The notes under the pieces were generated by a model that ran no database searches, was not told the DNA's origin, and worked only from the letters and a program-made list of their open reading frames with translations. Shown here piece after piece: positions 1,324 through 38,650 of a DNA stretch of 55,226 bases. Numbering within the stretch: position 1 is the first letter of the stretch; every line of letters begins with the position of its first letter. Origin of the DNA: an uncultured Traorella sp. (GTDB lineage: Bacteria; Bacillota_I; Bacilli_A; Erysipelotrichales; Erysipelotrichaceae); assembly GCF_944327115.1 (NCBI RefSeq), contig NZ_CALVGS010000039.1, positions 1-55,226 of the forward strand. Reading direction: 5' to 3'. The position numbers and the translations under genes were made by a program.

Positions 1324-2259
1324 ATGAAAGTGTTGGAAACTATAATCCCTGTATTTTTTATGCTTTTACTGGGATTTTTATCGAGAAGGTATCATTGGAT
1401 CAGTCCTGATCAAAAAGAAGGGGTAAAGAAGGTATTATTCAGTATTGTTTTGCCTATCGTCGTATTTAATGCAATTTTTACCTCTGATATCCAGCCATCA
1501 TTGTTTTTAGTGATTTTATATGCATTATTGGCATGGTGTGCTGCTTTTGTGATAGGTAAATTATGCAGCAAATGGATCAGTGAACGCTATTCCAAAATAG
1601 TACCCTATATGTTATGGACAGTGGAAGGCGGCAGTGTAGCTTTGCCTCTATATACATCAATCGTAGGTGAGGGATATGCCATCAATACGATCACTTTTGA
1701 TATGGCCGGTATCATCATTGGCTTTGTGCTGATTCCGATACTTGTATCAAAAGAGTCAGCCAAAAACGCTTCTTCATCAGAAATTATAAAGAAAATATTA
1801 ACAAATTCCTTTGTCTTGGCACTGGTTTTCGGTCTTATATTAAACTTCATGGGTGTATATTCATTATTGGATAAAATCAATGTCTTAACGATTTATACAG
1901 ATACGGTTTCGATGGCGACCGTTTCTTTGACAGGATTGATTTTATTTTCAATGGGGTATGAGCTAAGCTTAAAATTTTCAATGCTGATGCCTATCTTACG
2001 ATTATCTCTTATTCGTATCGTGACAAGCGTTATGATCGTCTTGGGTATTTTCTTCTTATTTCCTCATTTGATGGAAAATAGATATTTTATGATAGCTGTT
2101 TTGGTATATTTTTCATGTCCGACAGGTTTTGCAAATCAGCTTCAAGTACAGCCCTTATTTAAGGATGAAACGGATGAGAGCTTTTTATCAACCTACCTTT
2201 CACTTTATATGATTGTGACGCTTATTGCTTATGTGCTGATCGTATCGTTTGTTGTATAG
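1324..2259 (+). CDS. AEC-family transporter (auxin efflux carrier/malate permease type)
   Basis: A 311-residue, strongly hydrophobic protein with about ten membrane segments in the two five-helix halves typical of the auxin efflux carrier (AEC, PF03547) family, which in bacteria exports or takes up malate, malonate or other organic anions. The N-terminus starts with a membrane segment containing LLGFLSRRYHW, and the second half contains CPTGFANQLQVQ, resembling the conserved PxG/A region of the last helices. The start is set by AAAGGAGG seven bases upstream of ATG. Substrate is unknown; the neighbouring dehydrogenase suggests a fermentation product or organic acid, as inference only. Confidence 0.85.
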   Translation: MKVLETIIPVFFMLLLGFLSRRYHWISPDQKEGVKKVLFSIVLPIVVFNAIFTSDIQPSLFLVILYALLAWCAAFVIGKLCSKWISERYSKIVPYMLWTVEGGSVALPLYTSIVGEGYAINTITFDMAGIIIGFVLIPILVSKESAKNASSSEIIKKILTNSFVLALVFGLILNFMGVYSLLDKINVLTIYTDTVSMATVSLTGLILFSMGYELSLKFSMLMPILRLSLIRIVTSVMIVLGIFFLFPHLMENRYFMIAVLVYFSCPTGFANQLQVQPLFKDETDESFLSTYLSLYMIVTLIAYVLIVSFVV

Positions 2260-2288: not shown

Positions 2289-2317
2289 TTGCATGTCAAT
2301 GAAAGATATGGTATAAA
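2289..2317 (+). promoter_or_regulatory. Promoter of the ABC-F leader
   Basis: TTGCAT (2289-2294) and TATAAA (2312-2317) are separated by exactly 17 bases. Transcription should start near 2324, giving an untranslated leader of about 250 bases before the ABC-F gene. Confidence 0.65.
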
Positions 2318-2367
2318 TAATGAGGATGAATGTTATGGCTGCATAACATTAAAGGAGGCGAAGGACA

Positions 2368-2490
2368 ATGTTAGGTATGACAAAGATTTATGATCGTATC
2401 AAGAAACAGGACGCTTTTTGTCGTACCATTGTTTTCACTGTTTTCCTTTCTGATGGGACGAGTGCGTCCAAAATGCGGGAAAACAGATAA
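2368..2490 (+). CDS. Leader peptide of the ABC-F gene (40 residues)
   Basis: A short gene of 40 codons with a strong AAAGGAGG site (2350-2357) and an ATG at 2368, ending with TAA at 2488-2490. The peptide begins MLGMTKIYDRIKKQDAF and ends SKMRENR. It is followed by a Rho-independent terminator (2525-2553) and then the ABC-F gene. This is the arrangement of ribosome-mediated attenuation known for Bacillota ABC-F and erm resistance genes, where a drug-stalled ribosome on the leader prevents termination. I do not recognise the peptide sequence. Its role is inferred from position, ribosome site and the terminator. A longer overlapping frame at 2390-2584 has no good ribosome site and runs through the terminator, so I treat it as a shadow. 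Confidence 0.6.
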   Translation: MLGMTKIYDRIKKQDAFCRTIVFTVFLSDGTSASKMRENR

Positions 2491-2524
2491 AGCAGAATTG
2501 TACTTTTGTCATATGTATGATATG

Positions 2525-2553
2525 AGTCCGGCTCTGCCGGACTTTTTCTTTTT
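2525..2553 (+). terminator. Attenuator terminator between leader peptide and ABC-F gene
   Basis: AGTCCGGC (2525-2532), loop TCT, GCCGGACT (2536-2543), then a T-rich run TTTTCTTTTT. The stem is a perfect 8 bp. It sits 28 bases upstream of the ABC-F ATG, so it would block the gene by default. An upstream mini-hairpin, GGACG/CGTCC (2456-2469), lies inside the leader coding region and could be part of an alternative fold. Confidence 0.75.
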
Positions 2554-2580
2554 CCCGCTTCATATGGGAGGAGAAAGTAA

Positions 2581-4161
2581 ATGACGATACATATTAATGG
2601 AATAACTAAAAAATATAGTGATGATATCTTATTGGATGATATCACGTTAAAAATAAATGATGGTGAACATATAGGAATCGTAGGAGAAAACGGATGTGGA
2701 AAAAGTACGTTTCTTAAACTATTAGCCGGAAAAGAGAAATATCAGCAAGGTCAGATCATCATAACAAAACATACAAAGATCGGTTATTTGGAACAGAATT
2801 TTAAAGATTATGAGGGAAGCGTTCATGATTATTTGATGAGCAGCCGCCGTGATCTTTTGGAAATGAAGGATCAGATGCATCGCATGGAAATGAAAATTTC
2901 CGATCCTGATAATGCCCTGCTTTTAGATGATTTATTGAAAAAATATGGCAATTTATGCGCAAACTTTGAGATGGCTGGCGGCTATGATCTGCTTTACAAG
3001 GTGGATCAGATGGCACAGGGGCTACGGATTGCCCATCTTATTGACCATGATTATAACGTATTGAGCGGTGGAGAGAAGATGCGTGTCAATTTAGCTTACC
3101 TGCTTATCCAAGAATCAGATGTATTATTGTTGGATGAACCGACGAATCATTTAGATGTGGCAGGAATCGAGTGGCTGGAGAAATATATCAGTTTGCTTCG
3201 AAAAACAGTGGTCATCGTTTCCCATGACCGTCTTTTCCTGAATCATACGATATCGAAGATCTATGAGATCGAGCATGGTGAAATGATAATGTATTTGGGA
3301 AATTATGATGACTATAAAAAAGAAAAAGCTTTGCGTTTTGAACGTCTGAAGCATGATTATGAAGAACAGCAGAAGCAGATTTTGAAATTGAAGAATGCCA
3401 TACGGCGCTATCGCCAATGGGCGTATGAAGGGGATAATGAAAGCTTTTATAAGAAGGCAAAGCAATTGGAAAAAAAGCTGTCGCAGATTGAAAGACTGCA
3501 AGACCCAAAGCATGCAAATCGGAAAATGAAGATTGCATTGCCGGCATGTCAAAGAAGCAGCAAAGAGGTTTTGGTCATTGAAGATTTATGTAAAAGGTAT
3601 GGCGATCATATGCTTTTGGAACATGTTGATCTTTCTGTTTACTGGCAGGATAGAATTGCTTTGTGTGGCAGTAATGGCAGTGGCAAGAGTACATTGATAC
3701 GTATTCTGATGGGACATCTGCAAGCGGATGAAGGGAGTATTCGATTGGGAAATGATGTTGATATCGGATATTTGCCGCAAATCATCCGTTTTGATGATGA
3801 AAAACAGCGTCTTTTGAATCATTTTTGTTATGAAGCAGCTATGCATGAGGAACAGGCACGGCGTTATTTACATAAATTTGGTTTTGATGCTGAGGATATG
3901 GTAAAAAGGCTTCAAAATCTCAGCGGTGGTGAAAGGGTACGGTTGAAGCTGGCACTGATATTGGCTCATCATGTTAATTTTATTATTTTTGATGAGCCTA
4001 CGAACCATTTGGATTTTTCGAGCATTGAGATCATTGAAACTATTCTTGAAGAATTTAAGGGTACATTGCTGATCGTTTCCCATGATCGTTACCTGATCAA
4101 CCGATTGACTAAAAGACAGCTCATGCTTGCACATGGAAAATTGAGTGACTTGGAAAGGTAG
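2581..4161 (+). CDS. ABC-F ATPase, antibiotic resistance/ribosome protection type
   Basis: A 526-residue soluble protein with two ABC ATPase domains and no membrane segments. Domain 1 has Walker A GENGCGKST (35-43), signature LSGGE (161-165) and Walker B LLLDEPTNHLD (182-192). Domain 2 has GSNGSGKST (363-371), LSGGE (447-451) and FDEPTNHLD (470-478). Between them (about 245-325) is a charged helical linker rich in Arg/Lys, the part that reaches into the ribosomal E site and tunnel in ABC-F proteins. Length and the linker resemble Lsa/Vga/Msr-type protection factors more than housekeeping EttA/Uup. The attenuator-like leader supports drug-inducible expression. The drug class cannot be stated from sequence alone. 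Confidence 0.88.
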   Translation: MTIHINGITKKYSDDILLDDITLKINDGEHIGIVGENGCGKSTFLKLLAGKEKYQQGQIIITKHTKIGYLEQNFKDYEGSVHDYLMSSRRDLLEMKDQMHRMEMKISDPDNALLLDDLLKKYGNLCANFEMAGGYDLLYKVDQMAQGLRIAHLIDHDYNVLSGGEKMRVNLAYLLIQESDVLLLDEPTNHLDVAGIEWLEKYISLLRKTVVIVSHDRLFLNHTISKIYEIEHGEMIMYLGNYDDYKKEKALRFERLKHDYEEQQKQILKLKNAIRRYRQWAYEGDNESFYKKAKQLEKKLSQIERLQDPKHANRKMKIALPACQRSSKEVLVIEDLCKRYGDHMLLEHVDLSVYWQDRIALCGSNGSGKSTLIRILMGHLQADEGSIRLGNDVDIGYLPQIIRFDDEKQRLLNHFCYEAAMHEEQARRYLHKFGFDAEDMVKRLQNLSGGERVRLKLALILAHHVNFIIFDEPTNHLDFSSIEIIETILEEFKGTLLIVSHDRYLINRLTKRQLMLAHGKLSDLER

Positions 4162-38490: not shown

Positions 38491-38499
38491 TGGATTGTT

Positions 38500-38608
38500 C
38501 TCAATATATACCAAAGACAGCAACGGCTTACGCTTAATCAGGTTGCCGAGGTAGAAAGAGTATTTTTTCGTAATCTTTCAACTCACGCTGTCAATGCGTG
38601 AGTTTTTT
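38500..38608 (+). ncRNA. Ribosomal protein L10 leader with attenuator
   Basis: The conserved L10-leader pieces are visible: ACCAAAGACAGCAACGGC (38510-38527) and GTTGCCGAGGTAGAAAG further on, which form the kink-turn structure bound by L10(L12)4. It ends in a Rho-independent terminator: ACTCACGC (38581-38588) with GCGTGAGT (38596-38603) and T5. L10 binding favours termination, so the rplJL unit is self-regulated. Confidence 0.85.
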
Positions 38609-38650
38609 ATGGATATATATTGGATCAATATAGAAACAGGAGGTGTAATT

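Follow-up and report, generated by a model that had tools for sequence, protein, structure and literature searches.

The window analysed here, a stretch of 55,226 nucleotides from an uncultured Traorella sp. (Erysipelotrichales; Erysipelotrichaceae; assembly GCF_944327115.1, contig NZ_CALVGS010000039.1, positions 1–55,226, forward strand), carries a gene for an ABC-F protein of 526 amino acids. The only NCBIfam model passed by this protein is the ribosomal protection-like NF000355, and it falls under every cut-off of the named antibiotic-resistance ABC-F (ARE) subfamily models listed there. The region ahead of the gene, positions 2356–2577, is probably a leader-peptide attenuator, judging from sequence comparison and modelled folding. 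RNA 2324–2600 folds with -90.1 kcal/mol (z = -5.9), and none of 200 shuffled sequences is as stable. From 5' to 3' the elements are ordered S, V, U (in the motif codons), W, H, X, X2, terminator, Y and Z, and the features, all on the plus strand, are:

2289–2317, plus strand: putative promoter TTGCAT-17-TATAAA, seen in the sequence
2351–2358, plus strand: leader Shine-Dalgarno AAAGGAGG, upstream of the ATG at 2368
2356–2370, plus strand: strand S (leader Shine-Dalgarno/start region), partner X2, from duplex and swap test
2368–2490, plus strand: leader ORF of 40 codons, MLGMTKIYDRIKKQDAFCRTIVFTVFLSDGTSASKMRENR, from the sequence and a frame test in 17 relatives
2373–2387, plus strand: strand V, partner U, from swap test and alignment pair count
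2410–2439, plus strand: codons of the candidate arrest motif DAFCRTIVFT (DAFCRTITFT in relatives), from leader comparison
2414–2428, plus strand: strand U, partner V, from swap test and alignment pair count
2438–2446, plus strand: strand W, partner X, covered when a ribosome stalls at the motif, from swap test and simulated folding
2455–2469, plus strand: hairpin H, GGGACGAGUGCGUCC, from RNA-level conservation, read in three frames in relatives
2475–2486, plus strand: strand X, partner W or Y, from swap test and simulated folding
2496–2511, plus strand: strand X2, partner S, from duplex and swap test
about 2524–2544, plus strand: intrinsic terminator AGTCCGGC-TCT-GCCGGACT with T-rich tail, nested between X and Y, from scan and folding
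2548–2558, plus strand: strand Y, partner X or Z, from swap test and simulated folding
2566–2577, plus strand: strand Z, ABC-F Shine-Dalgarno region, from swap test
2581–4161, plus strand: ABC-F gene (NF000355, 436 bits, cut-off 380)

Rfam scans of the whole window and of the local region gave nothing above threshold except an L10 ribosomal protein leader (RF00557) at 38493–38618, an ordinary known element, and SorY and further low scores are regarded as chance. The promoter of the original prediction is present, but a consensus scan found two such matches with 2.8 expected, and they are thus no commoner than chance. Between promoter and leader there is a hairpin AATGTTATGGCTGCATAACATT at 2329–2350, a genus-level feature, and the sister species has ATATGTTATTGCTAATAACATAT at this place.

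The predicted 40-codon leader gene is real and should be translated, because its frame contains no stop up to the hairpin in 17 relatives, compared to 42 and 53 stops in the other two frames. An AGGAGG-like ribosome site precedes the leader in each of these relatives. The leader has 35–43 codons in the 13 Erysipelotrichales copies and 36–48 in the remaining relatives. Another open frame, 64 codons long (2390–2584), overlaps the leader and the start of the ABC-F gene and is probably due to chance. The N-terminal part of the leader is variable and downstream of the motif the reading frame drifts between copies, while DAFCRTITFT is retained by the 13 Erysipelotrichales copies. In its codons GCU UUU UGU CGU the wobble bases are almost invariant. 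A conserved R/K-X-R/K (macrolide +X+) arrest motif is absent from the window and most copies, and a macrolide RVR reading was rejected, R-V-R appearing only in copies whose frame reads hairpin H that way. A literature search on the leader motif found nothing relevant.

Since MAFFT did not bring W, X and X2 into register in every sequence, the helices were evaluated by swap tests, in which native strand pairs are compared with pairs swapped between genomes. The strands of S:X2, V:U, W:X, X:Y and Y:Z differ in sequence between genomes, and all five pair more strongly within than between them: W:X with -11.4 against -7.0 kcal/mol (p=5e-5), X:Y with -14.9 against -8.2 (p<5e-5), Y:Z with -10.5 against -8.2 (p<5e-5), V:U with -15.9 against -12.5 (p<2e-5) and S:X2 with -18.1 against -12.1 (p<2e-5), where related sequences count as independent and exchangeable, so that independence is overstated. 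An alignment pair count gave 75.9% of cells paired, a value reached by none of 500 shuffles and falling to 42–51% when the strands are slid. X:Y is made of GCGGGAAAA/UUUUCCCGC in the window and of GAAGGAAUCC/GGAUUCCUUC in L019, and in the V:U helix of L017 a codon change, UGU to AGU, is accompanied by a matching change from A to U in strand V. Taken alone, Y:Z does not stand out significantly from shuffles in most of the individual sequences, and pairing of the leader Shine-Dalgarno with U is at background level except in L028. Taken from the comparison of sequences, the five helices are maintained by compensating changes. The folded leader recurs, pairings included, in related gut bacteria and probably also in Listeria. 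The original prediction had also noted a 9-base complementarity, GCGGGAAAA (2475–2483) with TTTTCCCGC (2550–2558), and a small hairpin in the coding region (2455–2469); both are present, but rather than being extras they are two of about six conserved elements.

No other RNA stretch of the element is as conserved as this small hairpin, H, whose conservation goes beyond the needs of its short stem. Its consensus GGGACRAGUGCGUCC is translated as GTSAS, GRVRP or RDECV depending on the copy; with all three frames in use, the conservation is at the level of RNA. The distance from the motif to H is 45–47 nt in the 13 copies despite the frame variation, and the leading edge of a ribosome presumed to stall at the motif would coincide with the start of H. 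The related forms GGGACAAGUUUGUCC, GGGAGAAGUAUGCUC and GGCGAAGUCUGCC have a central RAGU in common. The motif codons GACGCUUUUUGUC (2410–2422) are complementary to GACGAGUGCGUC in H (2457–2468) over about 11 pairs, which are kept in the core group. As a helix, this U:H pairing (GAYGC..UUUGUC with GACRAG.GCGUC) was rejected, with no covariation (p=0.62) and, by eye, a loss in L047 and L054.

In the ermC-type translational attenuator (ErmCL) helices 1:2 and 3:4 alternate with 2:3, and a ribosome that stalls over strand 1 exposes the ribosome site further down. W:X, X:Y and Y:Z would form a similar relay of mutually exclusive helices. Without stalling, the leader RNA would be folded as S:X2, V:U and W:X with H at the tip of W:X, Y would remain available for Z, the ABC-F ribosome site would be hidden in Y:Z, and the nested terminator would also end most transcripts. 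A ribosome arrested about the DAFCRTITFT codons would cover U and W, leaving X free to form X:Y before Z is made, so that the ABC-F ribosome site would be open and the protein made, which would rescue ribosomes. If the ribosome goes on to the leader stop, it would cover X instead, and the switch would stay off.

Folding was simulated with and without a stalled ribosome. When the nascent RNA extends as far as Y, 11 of the 13 copies form W:X without a ribosome, the two exceptions (L019 and L020) preferring X:Y even then, and all 13 form X:Y when the ribosomal P-site is over the T of FT. A ribosome placed on the leader stop prevents or weakens X:Y in nearly all 13 copies. At equilibrium of the whole RNA Y:Z is often favoured over X:Y, also when W is covered, and the ON state therefore needs a co-transcriptional order in which X:Y forms first. 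The original claim that a translated leader acts as ribosome-sensing attenuator of the ABC-F gene is strongly supported by the open frame and by the leader and structure, both conserved in relatives, so that the refuting condition set for it, a lack of conservation there, does not hold, and a ribosome-mediated attenuator is the explanation that we consider best and probably correct. The stalling signal, the stalling site and the induction are what we infer, and the model does not cover the passage of RNA polymerase through the terminator or the strength of the sequence conservation of H.

The conserved codons might be kept for V:U pairing and not for a peptide arrest, in which case any ribosome held early would open the switch and the leader would sense slow translation in general. 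V:U covaries, the wobble bases named above are nearly fixed, and a ribosome over codons 1–5 is already sufficient for X:Y in several copies; furthermore, known ABC-F uORFs stall ribosomes right after initiation with little context dependence (PMC10201436). However, the early block does not give X:Y in L013, L014, L015, L018 and L042, and the motif peptide stays similar where the RNA differs (DAWCHTITFF in L028, ISFCHAIAF in L047 and IAFSHAIGF in L054). We give this reading somewhat less than an even chance. The retention of one leader motif in different genera suggests that the ABC-F subfamily has a stalling signal in common, and an inducer, once found, would point to the drug that is the substrate of this subfamily.

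The perfect 8-bp terminator of the original prediction is located near 2525–2543 (one found in the scan, 0.3 expected), and terminators are present in 13 of 13 Erysipelotrichales copies and in Listeria, which fits a control mainly by transcription attenuation. Arrest near the leader start would then free X2 to pair with the terminator and allow read-through, as in vmlR and Rli53. X2 is complementary to the terminator arms or the U-tract in several copies, for instance AAAAAGCC/GGCUUUUU in L014, a ribosome placed at the motif abolishes the terminator in L015 and largely in L014, and for lmo2760 a putative conditional terminator, RliI, is reported in PMC8079631. Against this, the terminator stays folded in 11 of the 13 copies at every ribosome position simulated, and the staphylococcal copies have no terminator between X and Y, leaving transcription attenuation as the main control a tentative reading. 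The view of the switch as centred on the terminator was given up for the same two reasons, and we favour a switch that is mainly translational, acting on the ABC-F Shine-Dalgarno, with the terminator as a second brake.

The original prediction described a known layout of ABC-F and erm control. This is correct for the kind of attenuator, with its ermC-like relay, but the layout is neither that of known ABC-F leaders, with uORFs of 3–6 codons (MIN, MRI, MAGN, MYLIFM), nor that of macrolide RLR leaders. Like ermC, the element would have a 1:2 and 3:4 versus 2:3 relay with strand 1 under the stalled ribosome, but it adds a nested terminator in the 2–3 loop, S:X2, V:U and hairpin H, and its leader is about twice as long. 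With vmlR, cplR and Rli53/lmo0919 it shares the ABC-F target, a uORF and the combination of terminator and translational control (PMC9226507, PMC10201436), but the uORFs of these systems and of LsaA have 3–4 codons (MIN, MRI; MAGN in LsaA), while the window family has 35–48 with an internal motif. In MsrDL, MefAL and rli80-hflXr a gene for resistance or ribosome rescue is likewise under leader peptide-dependent control (PMC10314930, PMC6310831), but a conserved RLR or +X+ motif is lacking in the window family. As a kind, the system is already known and would work like ermC translational attenuation plus a terminator, as in vmlR and cplR (PMC9226507, PMC10201436).

ABC-F proteins matching at E<=1e-100 are found in 12 of the 273 genomes of the family, and the leader precedes the gene in 11 of them but not in L023. 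The motif pattern was found in 13 of 316 genomes of the order (reversed control 0), in 11 before the ABC-F gene, in one (L028) before an MFS transporter gene and in one (G066) by chance, inside an unrelated gene. L028 belongs to another family of the order, and its leader element (1501–1578, minus strand) precedes a gene for a 405-residue MFS transporter (252–1469), indicating that the module is reused. No match to the motif pattern was seen in 273 genomes drawn around a Lachnospiraceae genome, a scan of viral contigs with the motif gave four matches, all by chance, and blastn with the motif against plasmids and phages gave nothing real.

The Listeria region before lmo2760 is RliI (RF01487, 282.6 bits), and the product of lmo2760 is 38% identical to the window ABC-F, the window gene being its best match in this genome. 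The region has a 36-codon leader with a ribosome site, S:X2, V:U and W:X with hairpin GGCGAAGUCUGCC, the terminator, and X2:Y before the gene, a helix that in simulation forms even with the ribosome at the leader stop. The window scores 16 bits to RF01487, with a gathering threshold of 45 bits, and the Enterococcus leader 17.2 bits over the full model length. Going by its Rfam score, the window does not count as RliI; it resembles RliI in its position directly upstream of an orthologous ABC-F gene and in its leader, helix order, hairpin and terminator, while the sequence is diverged. On gene neighbour and architecture the two are quite probably homologous. In the literature RliI counts as an sRNA acting in trans and a putative conditional terminator of lmo2760, its physiological role being described as unknown (PMC8079631), and the passages of PMC8079631 and PMC11394854 that describe it make no mention of a leader peptide; the comparison of ABC-F leaders would give it a function in cis.

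The terminated 5' RNA could, as proposed for RliI, act mainly in trans, and in Listeria RliI is stated to bind the lmo1035-lmo1036 mRNA (cited in PMC8079631) and Rli51 (PMC11394854). But from genus to genus the element remains in cis, ahead of the same ABC-F orthologue or else of an MFS gene, Y:Z is retained on the ribosome site of the downstream gene, and the conservation can be explained without targets in trans, which makes a principal role as sRNA improbable. A leader followed by a terminator is common to amino-acid operon attenuators, but an attenuator of the codon-run type responding to amino-acid starvation is very improbable, with no tool result in its support, no run of a single codon in any leader examined and ABC-F or MFS rather than biosynthetic genes downstream, and so is a chance arrangement, excluded by the conservation in the swap and frame tests.

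Returning to the ribosome-mediated attenuator, the ABC-F proteins of Enterococcus gilvus, Staphylococcus and Listeria monocytogenes show 43, 40 and 35–38% identity to that of the window, and each gene has a leader and the same helix order. The chances seem to us about equal that these leaders and those of Erysipelotrichales constitute a new family of ribosome-arrest attenuators, with a long leader, a DAFCRTITFT-type arrest motif and a conserved hairpin at the edge of the stalled ribosome, whose target is an uncharacterised subfamily of ABC-F proteins (in one case an MFS pump) and in which RliI would be a ribosome sensor. The family, the motif, the hairpin and the link to RliI appear to be undescribed within the literature searched, and what began as an isolated hunch from one sequence is now a family built on comparison, whose switch can be tested. 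L054, an unverified contig whose deposited name is that of a Listeria phage, carries the leader MMRMTKITSNENYQRYHIAFSHAIGFTVAVDGTSLSKTVEFT and scores 33.8 bits to a model trained only on the copies of the order. In the staphylococcal copy the leader, W:X, X:Y (11 bp) and Y:Z are all kept. L048 and L052 are staphylococcal plasmid copies with the element about 170 bases before the gene, in which the terminator is absent and the leader and switch helices are kept, and on pEpi56 the ABC-F gene is located near an epidermin immunity gene.
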